A DNA stretch of 64,000 nucleotides from contig CAKSIT010000011.1 in NCBI GenBank assembly GCA_934462925.1, forward strand, positions 36,579 through 100,578. Direction: 5' to 3'. The DNA comes from an uncultured Oscillospiraceae bacterium. Lineage in GTDB: Bacteria > Bacillota > Clostridia > Oscillospirales > Ruminococcaceae. This document shows positions 7,519-51,842 of this stretch, in pieces; positions within the stretch are counted from its first letter, which is position 1; each line of letters begins with the position of its first letter. The position numbers and the translations under genes are program-made. Below the pieces are notes generated by a model. That model was not told the DNA's origin. It ran no database searches and saw nothing but the letters and a program-made list of their open reading frames with translations.

Positions 7519-8930
7519 CCCTTATTTTTGACAGCCACCCGTTTCAGTACGAGATAGAGCGGCTTTTCCGCAGCTTCTTCCCGCCGATAAAAATAGCGCT
7601 CTCGCGCGAGCCGAACGACGCGCAGGGTGAATACTGCCTTACCTCGCGCCGCGCGGACGGCGGGAAGCTTCTGCTTAGCGTGCGGCTGTGCGCGGGCGGA
7701 CGGGACATCTCCCGCAGCGAAACCGTCCCCGCCGATACCCCCGAAAAGGAGCAGGAGCGCGCGCTTTCCGTGCTGCTTTACGAGGCGCTGCGCTCTCTTA
7801 CGGGCATTGCGCCGCCGTGGGGCATTCTCACGGGGGTAAGACCCGTCAAGGTGCTGGCTTCTGTAAGCGACGAATACGCCGTGGAAAAGCTGCTTGTGTC
7901 CCCCGAAAAGCTGGCGCTCGCCCGCAGGATAAGCGCGGTGCAAAAGCCCCTTGCAGAGGGCGCAAAGCCGCGCACGTTCAGCCTTTACGTGTCGATACCG
8001 TTCTGCCCGTCGCGGTGCAGCTATTGCAGCTTCATCTCGCACTCAGCAGACCGCGCGCAGGGGCTTATAGACGAGTACCTCGGGCTGCTTGCGCGGGAGC
8101 TTTCCGCAACGGCGGACGCCGCGCGTCAGGCGGGGCTGCTGCTTGATACGGTGTACTTCGGCGGCGGCACGCCCACCGTGCTTTCCGCGCAGCAGCTGGA
8201 GCGGCTGTTCGCGGCGCTCGAATGCTTCGACATGGCGCGCGTGCGCGAATTTACTGTTGAAGCGGGCCGCCCCGACACCATAACGCGCGAAAAGCTGCTT
8301 GCAATAAAACGCGCGGGCGCGCGCCGCATTTCGGTAAACCCGCAGACGATGAACGACAGCGTGCTTGCGGCTATCGGCAGGCGGCACACCGCCGACCGAA
8401 CCCGCGCCGCATACGCCCTCGCGCGGGAGGTGGGCTTCGAGTGCATAAACGCCGACCTTATAGCGGGGCTGCCGACGGACACGCCCGAGAGCTTCCGCGC
8501 AAGCCTTGACGAGGTTGTTGCAATGCGCCCCGAGAATATCACCGTGCATACGCTGTCGCTGAAGCGCGCGGCGGCGCTTTTCCGCGCGGAGGACGCGCAG
8601 GGCGGCGGCGCTTCGCAGATGGTGGACTACGCGCACGCGGCGCTTTCGGCTGCGGGGTACTCGCCCTACTACCTTTACAGGCAGAAGAACACCGCGGACA
8701 ACCGCGAAAATACGGGCTACGCGCTTCGCGGCACGGAAAGCATTTATAATATGTATATCATGGAGGAGCTGCAAACCATTCTCGCGGCGGGCGCGGGCGG
8801 CTCTACAAAGCTTGTTGACGGCGGCAGGATAAAACGCATTGCTAACTTTAAGTACCCTTACGAATATATTGACAGATTCAACAAAGTTATCAACAGCAAG
8901 GAAGATATAATAGGCTTTTTTGACGAATAA
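7515..8930 (+). CDS. hemZ: HemZ-type radical SAM coproporphyrinogen dehydrogenase
   Basis: 471 residues, the usual length for clostridial HemZ. The radical SAM cluster motif is C164-PSR-C168-SY-C171, a CX3CX2C. Family features follow: YFGGGTPT, FTVEAGRPDTIT, RISVNPQTMND, INADLIAGLPTDT and HTLSLKR. HemZ is related to HemN and is annotated as an oxygen-independent coproporphyrinogen III dehydrogenase, although several HemN-like proteins have other roles. An N-terminal 150-residue region precedes the radical SAM domain. Its ATG overlaps the previous stop. Confidence 0.85.
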   Translation: MTLIFDSHPFQYEIERLFRSFFPPIKIALSREPNDAQGEYCLTSRRADGGKLLLSVRLCAGGRDISRSETVPADTPEKEQERALSVLLYEALRSLTGIAPPWGILTGVRPVKVLASVSDEYAVEKLLVSPEKLALARRISAVQKPLAEGAKPRTFSLYVSIPFCPSRCSYCSFISHSADRAQGLIDEYLGLLARELSATADAARQAGLLLDTVYFGGGTPTVLSAQQLERLFAALECFDMARVREFTVEAGRPDTITREKLLAIKRAGARRISVNPQTMNDSVLAAIGRRHTADRTRAAYALAREVGFECINADLIAGLPTDTPESFRASLDEVVAMRPENITVHTLSLKRAAALFRAEDAQGGGASQMVDYAHAALSAAGYSPYYLYRQKNTADNRENTGYALRGTESIYNMYIMEELQTILAAGAGGSTKLVDGGRIKRIANFKYPYEYIDRFNKVINSKEDIIGFFDE

Positions 8931-8963
8931 TTACCTTGGGGCAACATATTCACGCGTAAACGG

Positions 8964-8992
8964 TTGACAAATGTGCATTATTTCGTTATTAT
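8964..8992 (+). promoter_or_regulatory. Sigma-A promoter of the DUF4870 gene
   Basis: TTGACA (8964-8969), 17-bp spacer, TATTAT (8987-8992). It implies a leader of about 70 nt before ATG 9070. Confidence 0.8.
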
Positions 8993-9069
8993 TTATAGTA
9001 GCGGAATGTGGCTCCGCTGAAAGGGCGCTGCCCTGTCACACAAAAAACTTTTACACTCCGGAGGTCATT

Positions 9070-9339
9070 ATGGACGCAAAAACAACAGGTATCGTTGCAT
9101 ACCTCACATGGATTGGCTGGCTTATAGCTTTCTTCGCAGGCGACAAGGAGGGCGCAAAGTTCCATCTCAATCAGGCGCTTGTTCTGGCTATCGCATTTAT
9201 CATTTGCGGTATCGTTCCTTTCGTCGGCTGGGTTGCTGAGATTTTCGTTATCGTATGCTGGTTCATCGGCTTTATCGGCGCGATTAACGGCGAGGAGAAC
9301 GAAATCCCCCTGCTTGGCAAGATAAAGATTATCAAGTAA
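9070..9339 (+). CDS. DUF4870-type small membrane protein
   Basis: 89 residues. The start is ATG 9070, set by GGAGG at 9059-9063; the longer frame upstream has no ribosome-binding site. Three hydrophobic segments (about 7-24, 33-54, 56-76) with the motif GDKEGAKFHLNQALVLAI between the first two, typical of DUF4870/Tic20-like small membrane proteins, whose function is unknown. It is monocistronic: own promoter, own terminator. Confidence 0.8.
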   Translation: MDAKTTGIVAYLTWIGWLIAFFAGDKEGAKFHLNQALVLAIAFIICGIVPFVGWVAEIFVIVCWFIGFIGAINGEENEIPLLGKIKIIK

Positions 9340-9353
9340 TCACACAAAGCAAA

Positions 9354-9384
9354 AGACCGCCGCGCAATGCACGGCGGTCTTTGC
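9354..9384. terminator. Bidirectional terminator
   Basis: AGACCGCCG (9354-9362) pairs with CGGCGGTCT (9372-9380). T-rich sequence is present on both sides, so it can end both the DUF4870 gene and the small minus-strand ORF at 9399. Confidence 0.8.
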
Positions 9385-9398
9385 GTGTGAACGCTGGG

Positions 9399-9488
9399 TC
9401 ATATAAGCTCCAGCAGCCCGTAAACCAGTATCACGCTCAGCGAAAGCGCAATTATTACCCTGTCGAATACCTTGCATACTTCTTTCAT
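9399..9488 (-). CDS. Candidate 29-residue single-TM membrane peptide
   Basis: ATG at 9488 follows AAAGGAG (9498-9504) at good spacing; an in-frame ATG at 9494 would be too close. The peptide is a short charged start (MKEVCKVFDR) and one hydrophobic helix (VIIALSLSVILVYGLLELI), then stop. Convergent with the DUF4870 gene and sharing its terminator. The ribosome site, clean TM helix and positive-inside charge argue for a real small protein, but no homologue is known to me. Confidence 0.5.
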   Translation of the reverse strand: MKEVCKVFDRVIIALSLSVILVYGLLELI

Positions 9489-9643
9489 TTTCATTTCTCC
9501 TTTACAGCGCCGTTTCCCGGCTGAGCTTATTGTAGCATATTCGCGCGGGGTTTGGCGGGATTTTTCGATACACTTTTATAATTGTGCCGCATACAGCGCA
9601 ATTAAGCATACTGCGGGGCGATTACCCCGCGCGGGAGGTTCTC

Positions 9644-10069
9644 ATGGCTTTTACAGACGAAGAAAAGAACGCGATATACGCGGTGGAGCAGGCGTGCTTT
9701 GCGGACTGCTGGACGCGCGAAATGCTGTTCGAGGAGCTTGACAGCCCGCTGTGCGCGGTCTGCACGTTCAGCGTGGGCGGAACTGTCGCGGGCTACGCGC
9801 TCGGGCGGGTCGCCGCGGACGAGGCGGAGCTTTTCCGCATTGGCGTGCTGCCGAACGAGCGCAGGCAGGGCGTGGGAATGCGCCTGCTGAAGCAGCTTCA
9901 CGCAGCGCTTGCAGAGCGCGGCGCTGCCGTGTGCTTTCTCGAGGTGAGAAGCCGAAACGCGCCCGCGCGCGCCCTCTACGAAAGGGCGGGCTATGAGCAG
10001 ATAGCCGTAAGGCGCGGCTATTACGGCGACGACGACGCCGTGATAATGAAAATTGCCCTCTCCCCCTAA
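9644..10069 (+). CDS. rimI: RimI-like GNAT N-acetyltransferase
   Basis: 141 residues from ATG 9644, chosen for the Shine-Dalgarno GGGAGG. GNAT motif A is clear: LFRIGVLPNERRQGVGMRLLKQL, followed by FLEVRSRNAPARALYERAGYEQIAVRRGYY, the RimI signature. RimI acetylates the N-terminal alanine of ribosomal protein S18. The gene stands alone rather than with tsaB/tsaE. A GCGGGG/CCCCGC hairpin (9613-9630) lies directly before the ribosome site and could affect translation. Confidence 0.85.
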   Translation: MAFTDEEKNAIYAVEQACFADCWTREMLFEELDSPLCAVCTFSVGGTVAGYALGRVAADEAELFRIGVLPNERRQGVGMRLLKQLHAALAERGAAVCFLEVRSRNAPARALYERAGYEQIAVRRGYYGDDDAVIMKIALSP

Positions 10070-10106
10070 CAAAGCCCCGAATGCTATTGACACGGGGCTT
10101 TGTTTT
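10070..10106 (+). terminator. Terminator of rimI
   Basis: CAAAGCCCCG (10070-10079) pairs with CGGGGCTTTG (10093-10102), followed by TTTG. Its loop contains the -35 box of the next promoter. Confidence 0.85.
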
Positions 10107-10116
10107 GTGGTAAAAT
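10087..10116 (+). promoter_or_regulatory. Promoter of the VWA/PP2C/SseB operon, nested in a terminator
   Basis: TTGACA (10087-10092), 18-bp spacer, TAAAAT (10111-10116). The -35 sits in the rimI terminator loop and the spacer holds its 3' arm, so end of one unit and start of the next share bases. Confidence 0.75.
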
Positions 10117-10153
10117 GTAAGAAGCGATATCATAGCACAGGAGGGAAAAAACA

Positions 10154-10891
10154 ATGTCAGATATACCCGTAAATCCTTTTGACGACGCCGAGGAAATTGC
10201 CAAGAAATCAATGGTGCTGTTTTTCCTCATAGACTGCTCGGGCAGCATGGGCGGCAGCAAAATAGGCACGGTAAACGCCGTTATGGAGGAGCTTATCCCC
10301 GAAATACGCGGCATAGGCGGCGCTGACGCGGACATTAAGCTTGCGGTGCTTAAGTTCTCGGGCGGCAGCGAGTGGATGTACAGCGAGCCTGTCTCGGTGG
10401 ACGAGTTTGAGTGGAAGCCAATCGACGCGGAGAACGTAACCGACCTCGGCAGCGCGTTCACGGAGCTTGCCGCAAAGCTCTCGCGCAGCGAATTTATGAA
10501 GTCGCCGTCGCTCTCCTTTGCGCCCGTAATGATACTGATGTCCGACGGATACCCCACGGACAACTTTGAAAAGGGTCTGGCGGAGCTTTCCAAGAACCGC
10601 TGGTACGCCGCGGGAATAAAGGCCGCCGTAGCCATCGGCGAGGACGCGGATTTCGATATACTCGCGCGCTTTACGGGCAGCCCCGACAGCGTTGTTACCG
10701 CAAACAACGGCGAGGCGCTTGCAAAGCTCATAAAGTTCGTTGCGGTAACGTCTTCGCAGATAGGCAGCCGCTCTATGCGACTTGCGGAGTCCGAGGAGGA
10801 TATGCGCACAAAGCAGCAGTCCGCCGCGGAGCAGATACGCGAGTTTGCGGAAAGCGACGAGATAAACGCTGATATCGAGGCGGGCTGGTAA
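10154..10891 (+). CDS. VWA-domain protein, TerY-like
   Basis: 245 residues. One von Willebrand A domain with the MIDAS motif DCSGS (about residues 27-31), a TD pair near T96-D97 and ILMSDGYPTDN later in the domain. TerY-type proteins of this size are usually encoded with a PP2C phosphatase and a Ser/Thr kinase; here the PP2C gene follows with a one-base overlap (TAATG) but no kinase is seen. Cytoplasmic; probably a metal-dependent protein-binding scaffold in a phosphorylation switch. Confidence 0.85.
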   Translation: MSDIPVNPFDDAEEIAKKSMVLFFLIDCSGSMGGSKIGTVNAVMEELIPEIRGIGGADADIKLAVLKFSGGSEWMYSEPVSVDEFEWKPIDAENVTDLGSAFTELAAKLSRSEFMKSPSLSFAPVMILMSDGYPTDNFEKGLAELSKNRWYAAGIKAAVAIGEDADFDILARFTGSPDSVVTANNGEALAKLIKFVAVTSSQIGSRSMRLAESEEDMRTKQQSAAEQIREFAESDEINADIEAGW

Positions 10892-15081: not shown

Positions 15082-15402
15082 TCACTCCACGTCAAGGTCC
15101 TCCAGCAGGCGGGAAACCTCGCTCATGCCGCGAAGCCTTATCCCATCGCGCAGCAGGCGCGCGTCCGCGGGGTTTATCTGCGTTACGGGGGTGGAGTAAA
15201 CCGCGGCGGGTTCGTCGTCGCCCTCGCGGAAAAGCGCCACCCTGCCGTCGTACTCCTTTATGATGAAATACGCGGCGGTGTCGCTTACAAGCTCCTGCGC
15301 CTGCGCCAGCACGTCGGAGCATTCGCCCGCGGCGTACGCTGCGCCCGCGCCGATTATTGCAAGCGCCGCAAGAGAGCCTGTCAGCTTTCCGTAAAAACTC
15401 AT
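15082..15402 (-). CDS. BofC C-terminal-domain-like small exported protein
   Basis: 106 residues. Hydrophobic N-terminus (LTGSLAALAIIGAGAAYAAG), a signal peptide or anchor, then YFIIKEYDGRVALFREGDDEPAAVYSTPVTQINPADARLLRDGIRL. This block is common in short clostridial proteins related to the C-terminal domain of BofC, a forespore protein that in Bacillus controls SpoIVB. Start supported by AAGGAGG. The link to sporulation is an inference helped by the nearby spoVA genes. Confidence 0.65.
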   Translation of the reverse strand: MSFYGKLTGSLAALAIIGAGAAYAAGECSDVLAQAQELVSDTAAYFIIKEYDGRVALFREGDDEPAAVYSTPVTQINPADARLLRDGIRLRGMSEVSRLLEDLDVE

Positions 15403-15636: not shown

Positions 15637-15665
15637 TTGAAAAAAACCGCGCGCTGTCGTATAAT
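15637..15665 (+). promoter_or_regulatory. Sigma-A promoter of the acyltransferase/ACP/KS operon
   Basis: TTGAAA (15637-15642), 17-bp spacer, TATAAT (15660-15665), leader of about 40 nt to the TTG start at 15712. The rest of the gap 15403-15636 shows no gene. Confidence 0.8.
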
Positions 15666-15711: not shown

Positions 15712-16398
15712 TTGGAGAATAAAAGCCCCGTAAAGCAGTCGGTCTGGGGGAGAATTTTTCAGACGCTGATAACATGGACGGTGTACTTTCTGTTCCGCCC
15801 TAAGGTTATTTATAAGGACAAGAACATGAAGCGGGCGTTCAAAGGCAGCCCCGCCGTATTCGTAGCGAACCACACGCACCATTTCGACGGAGCGTTCGGC
15901 GGCGCGGTGCTTGGCAGGTTCAAGCCGTATGTGCTGGTAAAGAAAAGCTGGTACGAGAAAAAGCGCGTGGGTACGATGATAGGCTGGTGCAGGTGCATTC
16001 CCATATCGCTTGACGAGGCGGACGGCGCATGGTTTGCCGCCGCGGAGCAGGTGATAGCCGCAGGGCGCTCAATGCTCATATTCCCCGAGGGCGGCCTTGC
16101 CCGCGAGGGGCATATGGAGCAGTTTAAGCCCGGCGCTGCGCTTGTAAGCGCTAAAGAGGGCGTGCCGATAATCCCCTGCGCAATTTACGGCAGGTACGAC
16201 ATGGTGTTCGGCAGGCGGCAGAAGATACTTGTGGGGCTGCCCATAGAAAGCAGCTGTCCGCCCGATATGCGCCACAGCAAGTACGCGCGCATTCTCTGCA
16301 CGCAAGCGCAAAAGCAGGTGCAGGCGCTTTACGCCGAGCTTGAGAAGCGCTACGGAAGCTGCGGGCAGTACGCTGAGAAGCAGCTTCAGACCAACTGA
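15712..16398 (+). CDS. PlsC-like 1-acylglycerol-phosphate acyltransferase
   Basis: 228 residues from TTG 15712, chosen because AAAGGAGAG lies 6 nt before; upstream codons have no ribosome site. Acyltransferase motifs: NHTHHFDG (HX4D), the RCIPISLDE block, and FPEGG. A single membrane-associated helix near residues 12-27. Such enzymes move an acyl group from acyl-ACP or acyl-CoA to lysophosphatidate. As first gene before a dedicated ACP and a ketosynthase, it probably transfers the product of this cluster to a glycerolipid. Confidence 0.85.
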   Translation: MENKSPVKQSVWGRIFQTLITWTVYFLFRPKVIYKDKNMKRAFKGSPAVFVANHTHHFDGAFGGAVLGRFKPYVLVKKSWYEKKRVGTMIGWCRCIPISLDEADGAWFAAAEQVIAAGRSMLIFPEGGLAREGHMEQFKPGAALVSAKEGVPIIPCAIYGRYDMVFGRRQKILVGLPIESSCPPDMRHSKYARILCTQAQKQVQALYAELEKRYGSCGQYAEKQLQTN

Positions 16399-16447
16399 GT
16401 TAAGAACGGGCGCAGCGCCCGAAATTATATTTTGAGAGGTAAACATT

Positions 16448-16693
16448 ATGAACACAGAAATCGCAGAAAAAATCAAGGGAATGCTTGTTGAGAACCTTCG
16501 TATACCCGCTGACGAGCTTGAGTACACCTCGGAGCTTTTCGGTGACGATATCGGGCTTGACTCCATCGACTCCATCGAGATAATCGCAGGTATCGACAAC
16601 CTTTTCGGCGTACAGATGACCGGCGCTGCAAGAGAGAACTTCCAGACCATCGAAACGCTCACAAAGTACGTTGAGGAGCATATGGGTGAATAA
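16448..16693 (+). CDS. Acyl carrier protein of the lipid/polyketide cluster
   Basis: 81 residues, normal ACP length and acidity. The phosphopantetheine site is Ser39 in GLDSIDS (the usual DSL is DSI). Helices 1-4 of the ACP fold are recognisable (IAEKIKGMLVENLRI, DSIEIIAGIDNLFGV, TIETLTKYVEEH). It sits 1 bp before the ketosynthase gene and shares the cluster with its own PPTase, so it is likely dedicated to this pathway rather than being the housekeeping AcpP. Confidence 0.9.
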   Translation: MNTEIAEKIKGMLVENLRIPADELEYTSELFGDDIGLDSIDSIEIIAGIDNLFGVQMTGAARENFQTIETLTKYVEEHMGE

Positions 16694-16694
16694 T

Positions 16695-19037
16695 ATGGCT
16701 GATAACAGACGAGTTGTTGTAACGGGTTTGGGGCTTGTGTGCGCCATCGGCGACAGCACCGACAAATGCTGGAGCAGCGCCATAAACGGCGTTACGGGCA
16801 TAGACACGGTGCAGTCGGTTGACACAGAGGGCTGCTACGCGCACCTCGGCGCGGAGGTCCGCATAAGCTCAAAGGACCTGTCGGGCGAGAACTACGACCG
16901 CTCCTCCCTGCTTTGCATTAAGGCTGCGGGCGAGGCGCTTGCGGACGCGTGCTACCCCGTGACCGAGGAAAGCTCCGCGCGCATAGGCGTTATCGTGGGC
17001 AACTGCGTTGGCGGCGCTGCAAGCATAGACAAGTACTATACCGACGAGATAAAGGGCGGCGGCTCTGACGCGGCGGATATCCTAAAAATGCCCGCCTCCG
17101 CCATTGCAAACAACGTTGCAAGGCACTTCGGGCTTAACGGCGTTACCGCGAACATTGTAAACGCGTGCGCGGCAGGCACTATGAGCCTTTCCTACGCGTG
17201 CGACCTTATCCGCGCGAGCAAAGCTGACGCGTTCTGCGCGGGCGGCTCGGACAGCTTCTCGTCGCTGGCGTTCAGCGGCTTCCACGCGCTGCACGCGCTC
17301 GACGAACACGCCTGCGCGCCGCTCAACCACAACAGCGGCATTACGCTCGGCGAGGGCGCGGGCATACTTATACTCGAAAGCTACGAACACGCAAAGGCGC
17401 GCGGCGCTAAGATATACTGCGAGGTGCTGGGTTCCGGCGTAAGCTCTGACGCTTACCATATAACAGCCCCCCGCCCCGACGGCAAGGGGCAGATGCTCGC
17501 CACCACCCGCGCGGTCAAGAACTCGGGGCTGTCGTTTGGCGACATCGACTACATCAACGCGCACGGCACGGGTACTGCAAAAAACGACGACGCGGAGTTC
17601 CTCTCCGTACACACGCTCTTTGACGGCAACGACCACCTGTCCGTGTCCTCTACCAAGTCCATGACGGGGCATTGCCTCGGCGCGGCTGGCTCTATTGAAG
17701 CGGTGCTTACCGTTAAGGCGGTATGCTCGGATATCGTGCCGCCCACCATCGGCTATAACGACGAGGACCTCGCGCGGCTTAAGGAAAAGGCGGGCGATAT
17801 CGACTTCGTGCCTAACGTAAGGCACGAGAAGCCCGTTCGCTACGCGGTTTCCAACAACTACGCGTTCGGCGGCAACAACGCAAGCATTGTCTTTGCAAAG
17901 CAGCCGCACGCTATCCCCGACCACACCAACAGGGCGCGTATTTTCGTTACCGGTATAGGCGCGCTTGAAAGCGTCGCTCCCGCCGAGGCCGGCAAGGGAA
18001 GGCGCGTTGAAATCACAAGCGACGACTACAAGGCGCACGGCATAAAAATGGCGTTCTACCGCAAGCTTGACCGCTTCTCGCAGCTGCAGCTCATTAGCGG
18101 AATGCGCGCGCTTGCGGACGCGGGCGTTGAAATAACCGACGACAACCGCGACGACGTAGGCATAATCATAGGCACGGCGGACGGCCCTATGACCGAAATC
18201 GTGGGCTTTCAGAAGAACACCGTGGAGCATGGCACGGCGAACGGCAGCGCATTCTCGTTCCCTAATACCGTTTATAACGCGGCGGGCGGCTATTTCTCCA
18301 TATTCGCGGGGATAATGGGCTATAACGTTACGGTTGCGAACGGCGTACAGGCGGGTTTACAGGCGGTATGCTACGCTGCCGACGTTATCCGCAGCGGCGA
18401 GGAAAGCATTATGGTGGCAAGCGGCACGGACGAAAACACCGACACCACCGCGGAGCTTTACGGGCGGCTCGGGCTTATTGCGGACAGCGCGCCCTGCGCT
18501 ATGGACAAAAAGGGCTTTGTTCTCGGCGAGGGTTCGGTATCGCTCATTCTCGAAAAGGACGAGTCCTGCGACAAGCGCGGTGCAAAGAAGTACGCGGAGC
18601 TTGCGGGCTACGGTATGGCGCACAAGTCCGTTGAGTTCGGCACGATAAGCGGCTCGGAGAGCGCGCTTCGCGGCGCGGTTCTCGCGGCGTGCGCGGACGC
18701 CGGTATTTCCCCCGACGACATAAGCGCGGTGTGCGCTTTCGCCGACGGCCACAGCACGGTTGACGCGCTCGAGCTTTCGGTATACAAGGACGTTTTCACA
18801 AAGGATATGCCGCTTTTCTTCGTTAAGGAGAGCATGGGCGAGGCAAGAGCTGCGGCTTCTGCAAAGCAGGCGGCGTTCGCGGCAGGGCTGCTTTCGGGCG
18901 AAGTAAAGAGCGCGGACGGCTATATGCTGCGCACGGGCGAACGCGCGCAGGTAAGCGCGGACGGAATGCAGTACGTTCTAGCAGCAGGTTTCGGCGTGGG
19001 CGGCTCTTATTCCGCGGTTATATTCAAAAAGGCATAA
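16695..19037 (+). CDS. Fused ketosynthase and catalytically dead ketosynthase (KS-CLF-like)
   Basis: 780 residues. Residues 1-405 are a complete FabF-type ketosynthase with the C-H-H triad: Cys158 (VNACAAGT), His290 (NAHGTGT), His326 (MTGHCLGAAG). Residues 413-780 form a second ketosynthase fold (RIFVTGIGALES … GVQAGLQAVCYAADVIR … GFVLGEGSVSLILE … AAGFGVGGSYSAVIF), but the three active positions are V551, D684 and E716. That is the layout of a KS plus chain-length factor (KS-beta), normally two separate proteins in type II polyketide and aryl polyene systems. Start ATG 16695 directly follows the ACP stop. It should extend malonyl units on the ACP and set chain length. Confidence 0.85.
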   Translation: MADNRRVVVTGLGLVCAIGDSTDKCWSSAINGVTGIDTVQSVDTEGCYAHLGAEVRISSKDLSGENYDRSSLLCIKAAGEALADACYPVTEESSARIGVIVGNCVGGAASIDKYYTDEIKGGGSDAADILKMPASAIANNVARHFGLNGVTANIVNACAAGTMSLSYACDLIRASKADAFCAGGSDSFSSLAFSGFHALHALDEHACAPLNHNSGITLGEGAGILILESYEHAKARGAKIYCEVLGSGVSSDAYHITAPRPDGKGQMLATTRAVKNSGLSFGDIDYINAHGTGTAKNDDAEFLSVHTLFDGNDHLSVSSTKSMTGHCLGAAGSIEAVLTVKAVCSDIVPPTIGYNDEDLARLKEKAGDIDFVPNVRHEKPVRYAVSNNYAFGGNNASIVFAKQPHAIPDHTNRARIFVTGIGALESVAPAEAGKGRRVEITSDDYKAHGIKMAFYRKLDRFSQLQLISGMRALADAGVEITDDNRDDVGIIIGTADGPMTEIVGFQKNTVEHGTANGSAFSFPNTVYNAAGGYFSIFAGIMGYNVTVANGVQAGLQAVCYAADVIRSGEESIMVASGTDENTDTTAELYGRLGLIADSAPCAMDKKGFVLGEGSVSLILEKDESCDKRGAKKYAELAGYGMAHKSVEFGTISGSESALRGAVLAACADAGISPDDISAVCAFADGHSTVDALELSVYKDVFTKDMPLFFVKESMGEARAAASAKQAAFAAGLLSGEVKSADGYMLRTGERAQVSADGMQYVLAAGFGVGGSYSAVIFKKA

Positions 19038-19045
19038 TTTTATCA

Positions 19046-19148
19046 GGACTGGCGAGAAGCCCTCAGATTCTAGAAACCCGCATAACAACTAGGCTGCTTG
19101 CCTGTTGTTATGCGGGTGACAACGAAGATGAGGGTTTATCGCCAGTCC
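19046..19148 (-). repeat. Structured hairpin element, copy A
   Basis: Long segmented stem: outer arms GGACTGGCGA/TCGCCAGTCC perfect (10 bp), middle CCCTCA/TGAGGG, inner 14-bp perfect arms ACCCGCATAACAAC/GTTGTTATGCGGGT, and an apical AGGC-AAGCA-GCCT hairpin, as read on the minus strand. It begins 9 bp after the ketosynthase stop. The copy at 21951-22053 keeps loops and apex but has different inner-stem bases that still pair. Could be an RNA, a processing or termination element, or a mobile palindrome. Confidence 0.8.
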
Positions 19149-19192
19149 AAAAGGCGGCAGAGATAGTGGCTGCCGCCCGTATACTTTCATAA

Positions 19193-19351
19193 GGGAACCT
19201 CTAAAAACCGGTTTGAAAAGGGAAAATGGGTAGAGTGCGCCGAATGCGATGAAAGCCGACGAAGTAAGGCTGTATGCCTTACGAGGAGGTTTGAAGAAGC
19301 AGTCGGTGTGCTATACACATTTTCACTCAAACAAGGTTTTTAGAGGTGACC
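19193..19351 (-). mobile_element. MITE-like element, copy 2 (159 bp)
   Basis: Inverted relative to copy 1 at 2623-2852. Ends GGGAACCTCTAAAAACC and GGTGACC (terminal inverted repeats), flanked by ATAA direct repeats (19189-19192, 19352-19355). It lacks the 71-bp internal hairpin block of copy 1 and otherwise matches it almost base for base. It separates the ketosynthase gene from fabG and ends 19 bp before the fabG start. Confidence 0.85.
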
Positions 19352-19370
19352 ATAATTTTGTGGAGGACAT

Positions 19371-20108
19371 ATGGAAAACAAAGTCGCGCTTGTTACAGGC
19401 GCTTCACGCGGCATAGGCAGGGCCTGCGCGACACGGCTCGCCGAATGCGGCTACGACGTTGCGGTAAACTACGTGAGCAACGAGGCAAAGGCTGCCGAGG
19501 CAGCAGCGGAAATAGAGCGGCTCGGCAGGCGCGCAATAACCGTTAAGGCGGACACCGCCGACCTTAAGGCGGTGCAGGCTATGTTCCGCGAGGTACACAA
19601 GGCGTTCGGCAGGCTGGACGTTCTCGTAAACAACGCGGGCGTTGTGGACGACGCGTATCTTCTCATGATAAACGAGGATTCCCTCTCGCGCAGCCTTGAT
19701 ATCAACATCAAGGGCTATTTCCACTGCGCGCAGCAGGCGGCGCTCAAAATGATGAGCAAAAAGCAGGGGCAGATAATCAACATATCCTCCGTAAGCTCCG
19801 TTCTCGCTGTAGAGGGGCAGGGCGTTTACTCCGCGACTAAGGGCGCGGTGAACTCCATGACGGCTACCCTTGCAAAGGAGCTTGCGCCCCGCGGCATAAG
19901 GGTGAACGCCGTAGCGCCCGGGTTCATTGAAACCGAGATGATAGACGCTATCCCCGCGGACAAGAAAGAGGAGTACCTCAAAGCCGTACCCATGCGCCGG
20001 TTCGGCACGGCGGGCGACGTTGCAAACGTTGTCGCGGCGCTATGCTCCGACGCGTTCAGCTACATGACGGGGCAGGTTATTGTGCTTGACGGAGGGCTTA
20101 GCCTATGA
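19371..20108 (+). CDS. fabG: 3-oxoacyl-ACP reductase (FabG-like ketoreductase)
   Basis: 245 residues, classic short-chain dehydrogenase. NADPH motif TGASRGIG (residues 9-16), NNAG, catalytic Ser in NISSVSS, Tyr-x-x-x-Lys in YSATK, and the C-terminal GQVIVLDGG. Reduces 3-ketoacyl-ACP to 3-hydroxyacyl-ACP. Shine-Dalgarno TGGAGG fixes the ATG. The stop overlaps the dehydratase start. Context suggests service to the KS at 16695, though it could also act in general fatty acid synthesis. Confidence 0.9.
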   Translation: MENKVALVTGASRGIGRACATRLAECGYDVAVNYVSNEAKAAEAAAEIERLGRRAITVKADTADLKAVQAMFREVHKAFGRLDVLVNNAGVVDDAYLLMINEDSLSRSLDINIKGYFHCAQQAALKMMSKKQGQIINISSVSSVLAVEGQGVYSATKGAVNSMTATLAKELAPRGIRVNAVAPGFIETEMIDAIPADKKEEYLKAVPMRRFGTAGDVANVVAALCSDAFSYMTGQVIVLDGGLSL

Positions 20109-20557
20109 TGAACCTCATGCAGATAAACGCCCGCATAAAGCAGCGCCCGCCCTTTCAGATGATAGAGCGCGTGACGGAGCTTGTACCGAACGAGTCGGCG
20201 GTGGGCATAAAGAACGTTTCGGTAAACGAGCCGTACTTTATGGGACACTTCCCCGACGCGCCTATAATGCCGGGCGTTCTTATAATAGAAAGCTGCGCGC
20301 AGCTCTGCTCGCTCGTAATCTCCCCCGAAAACGCAGCGCAGGACGAGAGCAAGCTTTACGTGCTGCTTAAGGTAAAGGACTTCAAGTTCCTGCGGCCCGT
20401 TATCCCCGGGGATACGCTCAATATAAGCGTAAAGTGCGAGATGTCGGGCGCGGGCGCATACGAATTTTCCGCGGTGGTAACCGTGGACGGAAAGGTCAAG
20501 GCAAAGGGCAGTATGCTCTTTACCTCAATGGACAAGAGCGCGGTATATGGAGAATAA
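20105..20557 (+). CDS. fabZ: 3-hydroxyacyl-ACP dehydratase (FabZ-like)
   Basis: 150 residues, hotdog fold. Catalytic block GHFPDAPIMPGVLIIESCAQ contains the His and Glu of FabZ. RPPFQMIERV and KVKDFKFLRPVIPGD are further family marks. It removes water from 3-hydroxyacyl-ACP to give trans-2-enoyl-ACP. ATG 20105 overlaps the fabG stop (ATGATGA), and its own end overlaps the PPTase start by 11 bp. With no enoyl reductase in the cluster, double bonds may be kept. Confidence 0.9.
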   Translation: MMNLMQINARIKQRPPFQMIERVTELVPNESAVGIKNVSVNEPYFMGHFPDAPIMPGVLIIESCAQLCSLVISPENAAQDESKLYVLLKVKDFKFLRPVIPGDTLNISVKCEMSGAGAYEFSAVVTVDGKVKAKGSMLFTSMDKSAVYGE

Positions 20558-21224
20558 CGAAAAGCTTGAGCAGGCGCGCACGCCCCTGCTGGATATGGCC
20601 GCCTGCATAGTATCGGGCGGAGAATCAATGAGAACGCGCGTTGAGAACGCCATGAATTTCTACGCGCCCTCGGACGGGTATTTTACCCCGCTTCTCGCAA
20701 AGAGCGGCAGGGCGTTCGAACGCAGCGCAAGCGGCTTTCTGCTGCTTGACGGGCTTTTGCAGAAGAACAGGATAAACCGCGCGGAGCTTACGCTTACGCG
20801 CCTTGAAAGCGGCCGCCCGTGCTTTGTGGGCTGCGATACGCTCGATTTCAGCATATCTCACAGCGGCGCGTGCGCTATGTGCGCGCTCGCCGTGGGCGAG
20901 AACGCCTCCGTCGGCGCTGATTTGCAGCGCGAAAAGCGCTACCCCGACGAAAAGCTCTCCGAGCTTGCAATGGCGTTTATGGACGAGGAGGACATGGCGG
21001 CGTTCTACTACGCAAAGGACAAGCCGCGCGAGTTCTGCACCGCGTGGACGCACCTTGAAGCCTACCTTAAGCGTACGGGGCAGAGCGTTTTCACGGACCT
21101 GCGGCAGGTAAACCTGCACGGGGAGTTCTTTTCCGACGGCGTTATAATTATGGACGGAACACGATATTTCTACAGCATAAATACCGTGCAGTACGGGGAA
21201 GCCCCTGCTGACGGCGAGGAGTAA
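20547..21224 (+). CDS. Sfp-type 4'-phosphopantetheinyl transferase
   Basis: 225 residues. Conserved Sfp motifs: GRPCF, DFSISHSGACAMCAL, VGADLQREKR (the Asp for magnesium) and AWTHLEAYLKRTG (W-x-x-x-E-A-x-x-K). It moves phosphopantetheine from CoA to Ser39 of the clustered ACP. A dedicated PPTase argues for a specialised pathway. It overlaps the fabZ gene and ends 2 bp before the flavodoxin-fold gene. Confidence 0.85.
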   Translation: MENNEKLEQARTPLLDMAACIVSGGESMRTRVENAMNFYAPSDGYFTPLLAKSGRAFERSASGFLLLDGLLQKNRINRAELTLTRLESGRPCFVGCDTLDFSISHSGACAMCALAVGENASVGADLQREKRYPDEKLSELAMAFMDEEDMAAFYYAKDKPREFCTAWTHLEAYLKRTGQSVFTDLRQVNLHGEFFSDGVIIMDGTRYFYSINTVQYGEAPADGEE

Positions 21225-21226
21225 AT

Positions 21227-21937
21227 ATGAAGGTACTTGTATTAAACGGAAGCCCCAAGGCGGAGCGCTCCAACACGCTCAACATAACAAAGGCGTTCCT
21301 TAAGGGCTTTCCCGAGGACGCCGAAACGGAGTACGTTTCGCTCTACAAGCTCAACATAAAGCCCTGCGTGGGGTGCTTTTCCTGCTGGAGCAAAACGCAG
21401 GGGCATTGCGTGATAAACGACGATATGCAGGGGCTTTACGGCAAGATAAAGAGCGCGGATATCATAATCGAGAGCTTTCCGCTCTACTTTTTCGGAATGC
21501 CCTCGCAGCTTAAGGCAATGACGGACCGCTGCCTGCCGTTCATGCTGCCCTACATGGGCAACCTTGTCGAGGACAAGAACGCGTCCTTCCACGAGCTGCG
21601 CGACGAATCCATGCACGAAAAGCGCCTTGTGGTAATAACTACCTGCGGGTATGTTCAGGCAGAGCCTATGTACCCCGCGCTGCTTAAGGAGTTCGACCTT
21701 ATCGCGGGCGAGGGCGGCTACACGCCCATTCTCTGTCCCGAGGGCGAGCTTTTCATCGCCGAAAAGGCAAAGCGCCAGCGCGAGGGATACCTTGCGGATA
21801 TCACAAAGGCGGGCGCGGAGTTCGCGGCGAACCGCGCGCTTTCCAAGGAAACTATGGAGCGCATTTCCCGCCCCATTCTGTCGCCCAAGGGATTTGAAAC
21901 GATAACGCTCGCTCACTGGGAGCAGAGGAGTAAATAG
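21227..21937 (+). CDS. Flavodoxin-fold NAD(P)H-dependent oxidoreductase
   Basis: 236 residues. FMN-binding start LVLNGSPKAERSNT, then GCFSCWSKTQGHCVINDDM, typical of NADPH-dependent FMN reductases and iron-sulfur flavoproteins; ESFPLYFFGMPSQLKAMTDR binds the flavin ring. Last gene of the cluster before the spoVA genes, starting 2 bp after the PPTase. It could reduce an intermediate or product of the pathway; substrate unknown. Confidence 0.8.
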   Translation: MKVLVLNGSPKAERSNTLNITKAFLKGFPEDAETEYVSLYKLNIKPCVGCFSCWSKTQGHCVINDDMQGLYGKIKSADIIIESFPLYFFGMPSQLKAMTDRCLPFMLPYMGNLVEDKNASFHELRDESMHEKRLVVITTCGYVQAEPMYPALLKEFDLIAGEGGYTPILCPEGELFIAEKAKRQREGYLADITKAGAEFAANRALSKETMERISRPILSPKGFETITLAHWEQRSK

Positions 21938-21950
21938 TCTATGTGGCGGC

Positions 21951-22053
21951 AGACTGGCGATAAAGGCACATCTGCGTCGTCAACGACATTTCGGCAGGCA
22001 AATAGCCTAGCCGAAACGCCGTTTCCTAGCATCTGCACCTTTCTCACCGGTCT
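21951..22053 (+). repeat. Structured hairpin element, copy B
   Basis: Same family as 19046-19148, opposite orientation. Outer arms AGACTGG/CCGGTCT, inner arms AACGACATTTCGGC/GCCGAAACGCCGTT (12 of 14 pairs), apical AGGC-AAATA-GCCT. Conserved unpaired blocks: TCTGCGTCGTC (copy A TCTTCGTTGTC) and TCCTAGCATC (copy A TTCTAGAATC). It lies between the flavodoxin-fold gene and spoVAC; the rest of that gap shows no gene. Confidence 0.8.
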
Positions 22054-22253
22054 TATCAAAAGCACTCATTTATGCAGCCCCTTCAATTTTTGGAGGGACT
22101 GTATTTTTTGTCTCTCATAGTCTTTTGCTATCTATTGTTTTTCAACTTTTTCTATGCCTTGAATTTCCACCCCGCGCGCCGTATTTATTCGCCCTTTTTC
22201 CGCAAAATATGACCATTACATTTACCGCACTTTTGCGGGGGAAAGGAAAACGC

Positions 22254-22706
22254 ATGAATATATCAAACGAAGAATACGGCGAGCTTACAAAACAGCGCTC
22301 GCCCGCGTCGGCAATGTACAGAACGCTGCCTATGGCGTTCGTTATAGGCGGCGGTATCTGCGTGCTTGGCGAGGCGCTGCTGAACCTCTACGCCGCGCTT
22401 GGAATGAGCGAGGACAACGCGGGCGCGCTTACGTCAATGTCGCTTATATTCTTAAGCATTCTGTTTACGGGGCTGCGGCTTTACGACCGCTGCGCGCAGG
22501 CGGGCGGCGCTGGTACGCTCGTACCTATAACGGGCTTTGCGAACGCCATGTCCTCGCCTGCGCTCGACTTCAAGAGCGAGGGGCTGATTCTCGGGCTTGG
22601 CGCGAAGATGTTTACCATTGCAGGACCGGTTATAGTATACGGCATTTCCGCGTCGATAATTTACGGCATTATTTACTATATAATAGGGCTGTTTCAGGGG
22701 GGATAA
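22254..22706 (+). CDS. spoVAC: Stage V sporulation protein AC
   Basis: 150 residues from ATG 22254 (AAAGGA upstream). Four hydrophobic segments; GFANAMSSPALDFKSEGLILGLGAKMFTIAGPVIVYG is the signature SpoVAC region. In endospore formers it is part of the inner-membrane SpoVA channel that imports dipicolinic acid into the forespore and releases it on germination. First gene of spoVAC-AD-AE. Confidence 0.95.
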   Translation: MNISNEEYGELTKQRSPASAMYRTLPMAFVIGGGICVLGEALLNLYAALGMSEDNAGALTSMSLIFLSILFTGLRLYDRCAQAGGAGTLVPITGFANAMSSPALDFKSEGLILGLGAKMFTIAGPVIVYGISASIIYGIIYYIIGLFQGG

Positions 22707-22708
22707 AC

Positions 22709-23713
22709 ATGGCAGTATGCGAAGGCAGAACATTCCGCTACAGCAACGCAAGCGTGCAGAGTTACGCTGCGGTAGTCGGCAAGGCGGAGGCCGACGGGCC
22801 TTACGGCAACGAGTTCGACGAGGTGATACCCGACAACAAGGGTACTGCGCAGACGTGGGAGCAGGCGGAGGCGCTCTTTCAGCAAAAGGCGCTCGGCCAT
22901 GCAATGAGAAAGGCGCAGCTCTCCCCCGAAAAAATGGAGCTTGTGATAGCGGGCGACCTGCTGAACCAATGCACGGGTTCAAGCTATGGGCTTAAGGACT
23001 ACTATATACCGTTTCTCGGTATCTACGGCGCTTGCTCTACGTTTGCGGAGGGGCTGCTGCTGGCGGCGGCGCTCGTAAACGCAGGGTATGTGGACAACGC
23101 CGCGGCGGTAACGTCCTCGCACTTCTCCTCGGCGGAGCGCCAGTTCAGATTCCCGCTGAACTACGGCGGCGTGCGCACGCCAACCGCGCAATGGACGGCG
23201 ACCGCCGCGGGCGCTGCAATAGTCGCTTCTCAGCCAAAGCCGCCCTATATCCGCGCGGCGACCGTCGGCAAGATACAGGATATGGGCATAACCGACCTTA
23301 ACAACATGGGCGCGGCAATGGCGGGCGCGGCTTACGACACGATAACCCGCCACTTTAAGCACATGGGTACTCACCCCGAAAGCTACGACCTTATAATAAC
23401 GGGCGACCTCGGGCAGGTGGGCAGCGACCTTATGCACGACCTTTTCAAACGCGACGGCGTTGCCATTGAAAAGCGGCACAAGGACTGCGGGCTGATGATA
23501 TTCGACCGCGAAAGCCAGGATGTACACGCGGGCGGCTCGGGCTGCGGGTGCGGCGCTTCGATGATGTGCGCGCATTTTCTGCGCAGGGTGGAGCGCGGCG
23601 ACCTCGGGCGCATTCTGTTTGTGGCGACGGGAGCGCTGATGTCGCCGACGATGGTGCAGCAGGGCGGCTCTATACCCGGCATTGCGCACGCGGTGGAGAT
23701 TTCCGCGAAATAG
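22709..23713 (+). CDS. spoVAD: Stage V sporulation protein AD
   Basis: 334 residues. Thiolase/ketosynthase-like fold used for dipicolinic acid binding: GIYGACSTFAEGLLLAA, TSSHFSSAERQFRFPLNYG, TGDLGQVGSDLMHD, GSGCGCGASMM. Begins 2 bp after spoVAC. Its distant kinship with ketosynthases is notable beside the KS fusion, but it belongs to the spore channel. Confidence 0.95.
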   Translation: MAVCEGRTFRYSNASVQSYAAVVGKAEADGPYGNEFDEVIPDNKGTAQTWEQAEALFQQKALGHAMRKAQLSPEKMELVIAGDLLNQCTGSSYGLKDYYIPFLGIYGACSTFAEGLLLAAALVNAGYVDNAAAVTSSHFSSAERQFRFPLNYGGVRTPTAQWTATAAGAAIVASQPKPPYIRAATVGKIQDMGITDLNNMGAAMAGAAYDTITRHFKHMGTHPESYDLIITGDLGQVGSDLMHDLFKRDGVAIEKRHKDCGLMIFDRESQDVHAGGSGCGCGASMMCAHFLRRVERGDLGRILFVATGALMSPTMVQQGGSIPGIAHAVEISAK

Positions 23714-23723
23714 GAGGGGCGTT

Positions 23724-24098
23724 ATGGATATGTTTATGGAATATGTGCGGGCGTTCGTTGTGGGCGGGCTTATATGCGTTGTGGGGCAGCTGCTTATCGA
23801 CCTTACAAAGCTCACCCCCGCAAGGATACTCACCTCGTACGTTGTGGCGGGCGTGATACTGGGGGCAGTCGGGCTTTACAAGCCGCTCGTTGATTTCGCG
23901 GGAGGGGGCGCTACCGTGCCGCTCACGGGCTTCGGGTATCTCTTAAGCAAGGGCGTGCGCGAGGCGGTGGACGAAAACGGGCTTATCGGCGCGTTTATGG
24001 GAGGCTTCACCGCGTGCGCGGCGGGCGTTGCAGCGGCGGTGTTCTTCTCGCTTATCGCGGCGCTTATTTTCAAGAGCGGAAGCAAGATAAACGAATAA
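23724..24098 (+). CDS. spoVAE: Stage V sporulation protein AE
   Basis: 124 residues from ATG 23724 (TAGGAGGGG upstream). Four hydrophobic helices with GGLICVVGQLLIDLTKLTPARILTSYVV and GGGATVPLTGFGYLLSKGV, the SpoVAE/AEb signature. Third spoVA gene, ended by a strong terminator. No spoVAA, AB or AF in the window, which fits the short clostridial spoVACDE arrangement. Confidence 0.93.
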   Translation: MDMFMEYVRAFVVGGLICVVGQLLIDLTKLTPARILTSYVVAGVILGAVGLYKPLVDFAGGGATVPLTGFGYLLSKGVREAVDENGLIGAFMGGFTACAAGVAAAVFFSLIAALIFKSGSKINE

Positions 24099-29060: not shown

Positions 29061-29572
29061 TGGAGTATTTCGACCTTTACACCGCGGACAGGCGTCCGCT
29101 CGGGCAGAAGATACTGCGCGGCTCGCCCATTCCGCGCGGCACGTACCACATTGTAGTGCAGATTATGACGGTAAACCGCGACGGCAGGATACTTCTGACC
29201 CAGCGCGCGCAGGGCAAGTCGGGCGCGGGCAGGTGGGAATGCACGGGCGGCTGCGCCGTTTCGGGCGAAACGAGCAGGCAGGCCGCCGCGCGCGAGCTTT
29301 TCGAGGAAACGGGTATTCGCGTGGCGCCGCAGTCGCTCGAGCATATATGGACGCTTAAGGGCGACAGTATGCTGCTTGACTTCTACGCCGCGCGGCAGGA
29401 CATAAAGCTCGGCGATATGCGGCTGCAGCCCGCGGAGGTGAGCGCGGCGAAATGGGTAAGCTTTGAGCGCATGGAGGAAATGGTGCGCTCGGGGCAGACT
29501 ATAGCGACCGTGACAAAGTGGTTCTACGCCTGCCACGACGCCCTGCGCAGCCGCGCGCGTGCGGCAGACTGA
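29060..29572 (+). CDS. Nudix hydrolase
   Basis: 170 residues. A perfect Nudix box, starting GCAVSGE and ending REL-FEETGI (about residues 75-97), inside LLTQRAQGKSGAGRWECTGG. Hydrolyses a nucleoside diphosphate linked to another group; the substrate is not deducible. Its ATG overlaps the GH130 stop (TAATG), implying coupled translation. Confidence 0.85.
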   Translation: MEYFDLYTADRRPLGQKILRGSPIPRGTYHIVVQIMTVNRDGRILLTQRAQGKSGAGRWECTGGCAVSGETSRQAAARELFEETGIRVAPQSLEHIWTLKGDSMLLDFYAARQDIKLGDMRLQPAEVSAAKWVSFERMEEMVRSGQTIATVTKWFYACHDALRSRARAAD

Positions 29573-29594
29573 ACCTTTCATACGGAGGCTTTCC

Positions 29595-50162: not shown

Positions 50163-51842
50163 TTATAAATCGTTCTCCGCAGCGAATCTCTCAAAGTCGC
50201 GGCGGCGAATCTCCGCGCGGATTATCTTGCCGCTTATCGTCTTGGGAAGCTCGTCCACGAACTCTATGCGGCGGGGGTACTTGTAGGGCGCGGTGTTCTT
50301 CTTAACGTGCGCCTGAAGCTCCTTTACAAGCTCATCGCTCGGCTCATAGCCCTTCATAAGCACGATTGTCGCCTTTACCACCTCGCCTCTTATCGGGTCG
50401 GGGCAGCCTGTTACGGCGCATTCAAGCACGGCGGGGTGAGCTATAAGCACGCTCTCAATCTCAAACGGCCCTATGCGGTAGCCGCTGGACTTTATCTGGT
50501 CGTCGTTCCTGCCGACATACCAGTAGTAGCCCTCCTCGTCGCGCCACGCGGTGTCGCCCGTGTGGTAAAGCCCGTCGTGCCACGCCTCGTCGGTTATCTT
50601 GGGGCTGCGGTAATACCCGCGGAAAAGCCCCGGCGTGTGCGTAAACTCGCCGCGCACGCAAATCTCGCCAACTTCTCCGGGCGGTACGATATTGCCCTGC
50701 GGGTCTACAAGCTCTACATTGTAAAGCGGCGTGGGCTTGCCCATAGAGCCGGGCTTAGGGGTCATGCCCTTAAGGTTTGCAAGGATAGCGGTGCTTTCGG
50801 TCTGCCCGAAGCCCTCCATAAGCTTTATGCCCGTGTATTCATACCACTTGTTGTATACCTCGGGGTTGAGCGCCTCGCCCGCAATGGTGCAGTATTTGAG
50901 CGAGGAGAGGTCGTACCCGCCGATACCCGCCTTTATAAAGAAGCGGAACATGGTGGGCGGCGCGCAGAACGTGGTTATTTTGTACTTTTCCATTACCGCA
51001 AGCATATTCTCGGGGATAAACTTGTCAAAGTCGTACACGAAAACGCACGTTCCCATTGCAAGCTGGCCGTAAAGCTTGCCCCACGCCGCCTTAGCCCAGC
51101 CCGTGTCGGATATCGTAAGGTGAATGCCGTCGGGGTCTACGTTCTGCCAGTGCTTTGCGGTCTGTATATGCGCGAGCGCGTAGGAGTGGTCGTGTACCGC
51201 CATTTTGGGGTAGCCCGTAGTTCCGCTTGTAAAGTACATGAGGAATATCTCCTCCGCCTTTGTGGGTACGCGCTCGAGCGCGTCGGGGTACTTTTCTATT
51301 TCCTCGTCAAAGTTTATCCAGCCGGGGTAGTCGCCGTTTACTATAAACTTGCTTGAAAGGCAGCAGTTAAGCGACATATCCGCAGCGTCAATGTAATGCG
51401 CAACGTTCGCGTGGTGCGTTGCGATTATCGAGGTCACCTCAGCCGCGCCGAAGCGGTAGATGAAGTCCTTTACCGTCAGCAGGTGGGTCGCGGGGATAGC
51501 GACAGCGCCTATCTTCATAAGGCCTATCATAGTGTACCAGAACTGGTAGTTGCGCTTAAGCACCAGCATAACGCAGTCGCCCTTTTTAATGCCGTGCGCG
51601 CGGAACATATTCGCCGCCTTGTTTGAAAGGCGCGACAGCTCGCCGAACGTGAACGTCCTTTCGTTGCCCTCAAGGTCCACCCACATAAGCGCGCGCCTGT
51701 CAGGCTCAAGCTCGGCGTACTTGTCTATTATGTCATAACCGAAGTTGAAGTTGTCGGGGTAGCGCAGCGAGAATTTTCTCAGCAGCCCGTTTTCATCATA
51801 TTCCTCGTTCACGAAGTTGAGATGATAGCTTTTTACATCCAT
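50163..51842 (-). CDS. AMP-forming acyl-CoA synthetase (ANL superfamily)
   Basis: 559 residues from ATG 51842 (AAAGGA upstream). P-loop YFTSGTTGYPKM, A5 GFGQTESTA, A7 YHTGDTAWRDEEGYYWYVGR, A8 KSSGYRIGPFEIESVL, and the catalytic Lys in PKTISGKIIRAEIR. The length and the N-terminus (NFGYDIIDKYAELEPDRRAL) resemble medium-chain acyl-CoA synthetases. It may load a fatty or aromatic acid onto CoA. Monocistronic, with a 140-nt leader. Confidence 0.85.
   Translation of the reverse strand: MDVKSYHLNFVNEEYDENGLLRKFSLRYPDNFNFGYDIIDKYAELEPDRRALMWVDLEGNERTFTFGELSRLSNKAANMFRAHGIKKGDCVMLVLKRNYQFWYTMIGLMKIGAVAIPATHLLTVKDFIYRFGAAEVTSIIATHHANVAHYIDAADMSLNCCLSSKFIVNGDYPGWINFDEEIEKYPDALERVPTKAEEIFLMYFTSGTTGYPKMAVHDHSYALAHIQTAKHWQNVDPDGIHLTISDTGWAKAAWGKLYGQLAMGTCVFVYDFDKFIPENMLAVMEKYKITTFCAPPTMFRFFIKAGIGGYDLSSLKYCTIAGEALNPEVYNKWYEYTGIKLMEGFGQTESTAILANLKGMTPKPGSMGKPTPLYNVELVDPQGNIVPPGEVGEICVRGEFTHTPGLFRGYYRSPKITDEAWHDGLYHTGDTAWRDEEGYYWYVGRNDDQIKSSGYRIGPFEIESVLIAHPAVLECAVTGCPDPIRGEVVKATIVLMKGYEPSDELVKELQAHVKKNTAPYKYPRRIEFVDELPKTISGKIIRAEIRRRDFERFAAENDL

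Follow-up and report, generated by a model that had tools for sequence, protein, structure and literature searches.

A conserved ketosynthase–chain-length-factor fusion in a putative acyl-chain synthase cluster of gut Oscillospirales

Within a 64,000-nucleotide stretch of DNA from an uncultured Oscillospiraceae bacterium (contig CAKSIT010000011.1; hereafter the window), a compact gene cluster at 15712-21937 encodes a protein of two joined ketosynthase (KS) domains, the second lacking the active-site residues and resembling a chain-length factor (CLF). Around it lie genes for a PlsC-like acyltransferase, an acyl carrier protein (ACP), a FabG-type ketoreductase (KR), a FabZ-type dehydratase (DH), an Sfp-type phosphopantetheinyl transferase (PPTase) and a flavodoxin-fold protein, with spoVACDE beyond, a gene content and order that agree with the initial annotation. 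The double KS is a conserved family, and by sequence and model it is a KS-CLF synthase of the kind found in highly reducing type II polyketide synthases (PKSs) and polyunsaturated fatty acid (PUFA) synthases, an assignment based on its top Foldseek match, the PfaC KS-CLF didomain, and on its grouping in a tree with a fused KS-CLF of Streptomyces. We think it probable that the cluster encodes a self-contained synthase of acyl chains around this fusion, which would extend a chain, set its length and pass it to PlsC for transfer.

The two halves of the fusion

A protein search with the fusion returned at least 6028 matches at E <= 1e-20 among 7993 scored candidates. The 120 matches listed are 736-795 residues long and 64-100% identical to the query over 92-100% of its length; because all 120 are full-length fusions (at least 64% identity and 92% coverage), sequencing error does not explain the join. 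We aligned 57 of these homologues with the window protein and those of four further loci (62 rows, alignment A2) and found Cys158, His290, Lys321 and His326 of the N-terminal half invariant (62/62), as expected from the intact Cys158/His290/His326 ketosynthase first annotated. By contrast, the Cys position of the C-terminal half is never Cys (Ile in 26 rows, Val 23, Phe 5, Asn 4, Ala 3, Met 1), its first His position, F682, is Phe in 59 of 62 rows (Tyr in 1, gap in 2), and its second is Glu in 59, Asn in 2 and Asp in 1; Gln552, neighbour of the lost Cys, is invariant in all 62. Of the degenerate triad proposed in the initial annotation (V551, D684, E716), the outer two residues are correct and D684 lies two residues off, the aligned residue being F682. 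We also compared 14 loci (the window, L001-L004 and L098-L106), one of which, L002, begins inside the fusion; leaving it out, the 13 divergent loci had the same active-site pattern in both halves, with Thr as an extra letter at the C-half Cys position. The VIA-align rows cover the KS half only. Judged by these residues, the protein appears to pair an active KS with a KS-like CLF that has no active-site Cys.

An AlphaFold2 model of the full fusion (62 sequences, no templates; pLDDT 87.8, pTM 0.93) packs both halves into a single predicted body. Its first-ranked Foldseek match is the PfaC KS-CLF didomain (6riw; TMq 0.79 over 911 alignment columns, 18% identity), which spans both halves, and single KSs and FabFs follow at TMq ~0.48, close to the ceiling for half the query. 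By sequence, the best match of the KS half in the PDB is 9s5h.

We then placed both halves in a ketosynthase tree of 59 of 65 rows (6 near-duplicates or overlapping frames were dropped) that covers 13 of the 14 fusion loci, L002 being left out. The clostridial N-halves form a single clade (100/100), which groups with two KSs from Streptomyces, one of them the KS half of the fusion there (100/97), and falls outside the clade of 20 FabF-type rows (96/84), where the condensing enzyme of a canonical type II fatty acid synthase (FAS) would be expected. The C-halves likewise form a single clade (100/100), joined by the CLF half of the Streptomyces fusion (100/92). Both halves group with KS-CLF pairs and not with FabF, in a tree where CLF rows are few, branches long and the composition odd; the depth of the link between C-halves and CLFs is uncertain because the CLF branches are long and oddly composed. 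A second FabF-like protein of Ruminococcus bromii (L084), encoded beside an AMP-binding-like ligase, also lies outside the main FabF clade in this tree.

A KS-CLF fusion by itself is not new, since the PfaC KS-CLF didomain has been published (6RIW; PMC12895367) and a Streptomyces cluster contains another, so the novelty that the initial annotation saw in the fusion as such does not hold. The cluster is instead a real, conserved variant of KS-CLF synthases. Like PfaC, the clostridial protein carries KS and then CLF on one polypeptide, and PUFA synthases resemble the proposed system further in that their chains end in membrane lipids. Unlike PfaC, it is a discrete protein of ~780 residues standing among separate enzymes; the other activities of the window cluster are single-domain proteins, and multidomain PfaA, PfaB, PfaC or PfaD proteins with tandem ACPs are absent from 15712-21937. 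Highly reducing type II PKSs (the ishigamide KS/CLF, 6KXD, and the cluster of Streptomyces sp. col6, L005) share the combination of KS-CLF, KR, DH and ACP. L005 has the highly reducing type II order FabD-type acyltransferase, ACP, FabG, DH, KS, DH, CLF and fused KS-CLF (7959-10325), and it is this fusion whose halves group with the clostridial ones. The clostridial cluster is much smaller and has PlsC and the flavoprotein, whereas L005 encodes a further KS and CLF, a pair of DHs and a FabD-type acyltransferase of its own. KS-CLF units have otherwise been studied as heterodimers or inside Pfa proteins; as a stand-alone fusion encoded beside a dedicated ACP, KR, DH and acyltransferase, the clostridial protein offers a small model of such a unit. 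Narrow multi-term searches of the open-access literature found no earlier description of clostridial KS-CLF fusions or of such gut clusters, which is weak evidence.

A cispentacin-type AmcF-AmcG system was considered and rejected: against AmcF the double KS scores 264 bits, under the cut-off of 325, and AmcG is reported (PMC10698177) to lack some CLF secondary structures.

The cluster as an acyl-chain synthase

KR, DH and ACP genes are encoded together with the KS-CLF in the window and the compared loci. FabG adjoins the fusion in 14/14 loci and FabZ of this family is present in 12/14; among the 13 loci that reach far enough, all have the ACP (43-90% identical to that of the window in the 12 others) and 11 have PlsC. 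The flavoprotein is found in 13/14 loci and is missing from L104, while the PPTase is confined to the window and four close loci (5/14). A patatin gene adjoins the cluster in five of the 14 (PF01734 in the four scanned; that of L002 by reading). Two loci, L105 and L106, extend the set, with FabZ followed by FabD (PF00698), AccD (PF01039) and AccA (PF03255), then the flavoprotein and an acyl-ACP thioesterase (PF01643), and L003 abuts a canonical FabH-K-D-G-F-Z run, some genes of which were identified by reading.

Carriers are patchy at E <= 1e-60: 6/394 genomes from the order of G001, a close relative, 7/247 from its family and 1/200 from the R. bromii family, an R. bromii strain among them. 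A scan of genome contigs with two generic KS motifs found a double-KS open reading frame in 5/80 loci (L001-L004 and Streptomyces L005) and, with so few, covers the fusion family poorly.

On the reading we favour, the KS half would extend malonyl units on the dedicated ACP, FabG would reduce and FabZ dehydrate each beta-keto step, and the CLF half would set the chain length; PlsC would then place the completed chain on a lysophospholipid or a glycerol-phosphate backbone. Malonyl-ACP would probably come from the housekeeping FabD, except in the two lineages with FabD in the cluster. With no certain enoyl reductase, the default product would be an acyl group of the polyunsaturated, polyene type; reduction of C=C bonds by the flavoprotein would instead give a partly or fully saturated product. 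That the chain is placed on a glycerolipid, as the initial annotation proposed, is reasonable given a dedicated ACP/KR/DH set with PlsC, and the cluster suggests that certain gut Oscillospirales, the R. bromii strain included, make an as yet undescribed acyl lipid.

Several observations weigh against this reading. The best PDB match of the C-half in a sequence search is a FabF (116.6 bits, versus 114.2 for 9s5h_C), and FabF is also best in a profile search (167.4 versus 159.1 bits), so that on raw scores the second half does align best with active KS enzymes. We do not read these scores as refutation, because the active-site Cys is absent in 62/62 fusions and the tree groups the C-half with a CLF half; by sequence it is a diverged KS, as CLFs are. 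The row tying the C-halves to CLFs, however, is the C-half of the Streptomyces fusion, itself a long branch of odd composition. Individual loci lack parts of the proposed pathway, with no FabZ beside the fusion at L003 and L102 and no PlsC at L003 and L101. The flavoprotein is so widely kept that unreduced double bonds cannot be presumed, and in two carrier genomes, G201 and G312, the cluster looks more like a general fatty-acid synthase than a specialised one.

These last two points lead to the enoyl reductase question. By profile scans, no gene of the window cluster has a FabI, FabK or FabV model as its best family, and neither FabI nor FabK was recognised beside the fusion in 13/14 loci, the exception being L003 with the FabK of its adjoining fab operon (profile searches for 12 genomes, hmmscan of the cluster genes for the window, reading of open reading frames for L002). 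FabV likewise went unrecognised beside the fusion at those 13 loci, unlike what a canonical type II FAS locus would show. The initial annotation had listed enoyl reductase, FabD and thioesterase all as absent; this holds for FabI/FabK in 13/14 loci, but the flavoprotein is a candidate reductase, and FabD and thioesterase occur in two loci.

The flavoprotein carries an invariant C-x2-C-x2-C-x7-C motif, a pattern known from iron-sulfur flavoproteins. Among solved structures its best match by sequence is the flavone reductase FLR (7d38; 36.9 bits, and 52.2 bits in a profile search against 32.5 for the next), with the match confined to residues 1-106 of 236. A model of the flavoprotein (pLDDT 83.2) ranks azoreductases and quinone reductases first by fold, with FLR 36th. 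FLR (7D38-7D3B) is likewise flavodoxin-like, with a similar Cys-rich motif in the alignment, and is described in PMC7862272 as an ene-reductase of a new class that makes no direct use of NAD(P)H. It differs in being a 310-residue chain with a functionally important C-terminal tail, according to the same paper, and the window protein falls short of at least 30% identity over at least 80% coverage, the level taken from that report for FLR-type ene-reductases. The flavoprotein is a candidate flavodoxin-type enoyl reductase that is directly testable. Since it could be an ene-reductase, and since two loci carry FabD, AccD, AccA and thioesterase, the product may be either a polyene or a reduced chain.

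Carrier genomes bear on whether the cluster does housekeeping work. Ten of the 12 encode a separate FabF, so in those genomes housekeeping condensation probably does not fall to the fusion, and the same ten have a recognised enoyl reductase: FabK in five over the cut-off and in one just under it (G417), FabV in four. With E. coli FabI as query, the matches in the carriers were only 23-29% identical, and the clusters' own FabGs were among them. In the multi-contig drafts of G201 and G312 we searched without success for FabV, FabH, a FabK above the cut-off and any FabF other than the fusion, and the FabI search returned only the cluster's own FabG at 24% identity; FabH was not found in R. bromii either. 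Their clusters are those that add FabD, AccD, AccA and acyl-ACP thioesterase. In these two genomes the cluster may be the only acyl synthase, and the flavoprotein would then be the one candidate reductase it contains; otherwise the assemblies are incomplete or fatty acids are imported.

One alternative, which we hold to be unlikely, is that the cluster is an alternative FAS in which the flavoprotein is an unrecognised FMN-dependent enoyl reductase, making fixed-length saturated or mono-unsaturated membrane chains and being the only such system in some lineages. It would account for the retention of the flavoprotein in 13/14 loci, its kinship to an ene-reductase and the gene complement of G201 and G312, and the clusters do resemble type II FAS in their FabG, FabZ, ACP and PlsC homologues, in the additional FabD, AccD, AccA and thioesterase of L105/L106 and in the fab operon abutting L003. 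Set against it are the partial match and low fold rank of FLR and the reported lack of direct NAD(P)H use, the absence of the flavoprotein from L104, the ten carriers with both a FabF and a recognised enoyl reductase of their own, and the possibly incomplete, multi-contig drafts of G201 and G312. From canonical type II FAS the clusters differ in their condensing enzyme, a KS-CLF outside the main FabF clade, and in that FabI, FabK and FabV go unrecognised within them. Its more specific form, to which we give still less credence, is a FAS that uses the fused KS-CLF in place of FabF and a flavodoxin-fold, Cys-rich FMN enoyl reductase unrelated to FabI, FabK, FabL or FabV, working beside the housekeeping FAS in most carriers and replacing it in the lineage of G201 and G312. 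If this were true, the CLF would set membrane fatty-acid length in those two organisms.

FabV (PF07055) is present without FabK over the cut-off in G001, G252, G302 and G609, in contrast to the FabK of R. bromii, so the type of enoyl reductase varies among these Clostridia. The canonical fab operon of G001 contains a PIN-domain gene (PF13470), preceded by a small gene, between fabH and fabG (L107:5382-6176).

KS-CLF, KR, DH, ACP and acyltransferase also recall aryl polyene (APE) systems of the ApeO-ApeC kind, and an AMP-binding ligase (PF00501) adjoins the cluster in L098, L099 and L100. We nonetheless find an aryl-polyene-like pigment cluster, of the APE or flexirubin kind, very improbable. 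The ligase is presumably acetyl-CoA-synthetase-like, and its window counterpart (50163-51917) lies 28 kb off. APE systems have separate subunits, a half-size CLF, an aryl starter, a second KS (ApeR) and two ACPs; within 15712-21937 there is one ACP, no aryl-starter gene and no second ApeR-type KS. In clostridia, celluxanthene arylpolyenes are made by an iterative type I PKS, according to PMC12144888. The idea of celluxanthene or the yellow pigment was rejected on the same source, which reports that cex encodes that iterative enzyme and that the cex system is absent from R. flavefaciens DSM 25089.

Spore genes and the promoter

The initial annotation placed the product of the cluster tentatively in the spore membrane. 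A lipid system of the spore membrane, linked to spoVA and dipicolinate, would fit the spoVACDE genes immediately 3' of the window cluster, a DpaA-family gene 3' of the L001 cluster and a SpoVAC-like gene near that of L101. A small secreted-looking protein (window 15082-15402, minus strand; no Pfam match) adjoins the cluster in the window, L001, L098 and L099, and we assume that it resembles BofC C-terminal domains. The recognised sporulation genes are different at each of the three loci (window, L001, L101), and none was identified at the other 11 of 14, where translations were read, only some were profile-scanned and L002 is cut upstream. Only at the window among the 14 loci does spoVACDE lie beside the cluster. 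The nearby DpaA, SpoVAC-like and BofC-like genes are, in our view, presumably there by chance.

Genome-wide comparisons point the same way. In all nine carrier genomes that have both, SpoVAD and the cluster are on different contigs, although, the assemblies being multi-contig, their real distance is not proven by this; SpoVAD was not found in 3/12 carriers. At the family level SpoVAD is present in 217/247 genomes and the fusion in seven, five of which have SpoVAD, so carriers are not enriched for it (5/7 versus 217/247). The close relative G001 keeps the spoVA-HAD-GH130-Nudix-SecA block of the window without the cluster (L108).

We scored promoters upstream of 13 of the 14 clusters (not L002), with two spoVAC genes as controls and 300 order-1 random sequences. 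In 10/13 clusters a sigma-A-like site with 10-11 of 12 matches lies 5' of the first gene (0-31 of 300 random sequences as good); the site in the window was equalled by 0/300, and those at L098 (31 of 300) and L101 (27 of 300) are weak. L003, L102, L103 and both spoVAC controls scored at chance (8/12). Sigma-G-like scans gave only chance-level sites (best at L102, 15/200 shuffles as good; spoVAC controls 78 and 100 of 200), and since the controls too were at chance, we use only the sigma-A result. Expression of the cluster is, from these promoter sequences, probably vegetative and not spore-specific.

With no conserved linkage to spoVA/dpa genes, no enrichment in spore formers and a vegetative-type promoter, the spore-membrane link is not supported; we consider it extremely improbable and would drop it. 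The place of the cluster beside spore genes looks accidental.

Features of the window and insertions in the operon

Table 1. Cluster genes and associated features, in window coordinates.
Feature	Coordinates	Strand	Remarks
Sigma-A-like promoter	15637-15665	+	TTGAAA-N17-TATAAT; 11/12 matches; just 5' of plsC
PlsC-like 1-acylglycerol-phosphate acyltransferase family protein	15712-16398	+	TTG start; PF01553 62.1 bits
Dedicated ACP	16448-16693	+	PF00550 39.7 bits
KS-KS fusion, 780 aa	16695-19037	+	PF00109 and PF02801, two stretches each
KS half of fusion	16695-17927	+	Cys158/His290/Lys321/His326 intact; half boundary is our choice
CLF-like half of fusion	17928-19037	+	Cys and both His lost from a ketosynthase fold; Gln552 invariant
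Hairpin element	19046-19148		Between the KS-CLF gene and fabG; arms of 25 nt with 84% complementarity and, inside them, perfect arms of 14 nt
MITE-like element with terminal inverted repeats	19180-19354		Splits KS-CLF operon
FabG-type ketoreductase	19371-20108	+	TIGR01830 262.7 bits (below cut-off 297.75)
FabZ-type dehydratase	20105-20557	+	NF000582 133.4 bits (cut-off 113, exceeded)
Sfp-type PPTase	20547-21224	+	PF01648 25.5 bits (cut-off 25)
Flavodoxin-fold FMN-type protein, possible ene/enoyl reductase	21227-21937	+	PF03358/PF02525; C-x2-C-x2-C-x7-C
spoVAC-spoVAD-spoVAE	22242-24098		Directly downstream of flavoprotein gene

Two points had gone unremarked in the initial annotation: the likeness of the flavoprotein sequence to an ene-reductase, discussed above, and an insertion that divides the operon. 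The gap between the KS-CLF gene and fabG is 333 bp in the window (19038-19370), compared with 1-15 bp in L001, L004, L098 and L100, and this insertion may weaken the operon in the window strain. The hairpin element within the gap has a 76% similar piece at 21952-22010, just 3' of the flavoprotein gene. The MITE-like element has a second copy at 2620-2867 in the opposite orientation, with outer parts 95-97% identical and middles that differ; its terminal repeat is GGTTTTTAGAGGT (one mismatch at one end).

The conserved GH130/Nudix/spoVA block of the window (also in L108) encodes a second SecA-type protein of 776 residues (29559-31889). A different, longer SecA (893-918 residues) adjoins the cluster in L001 and L098-L100.

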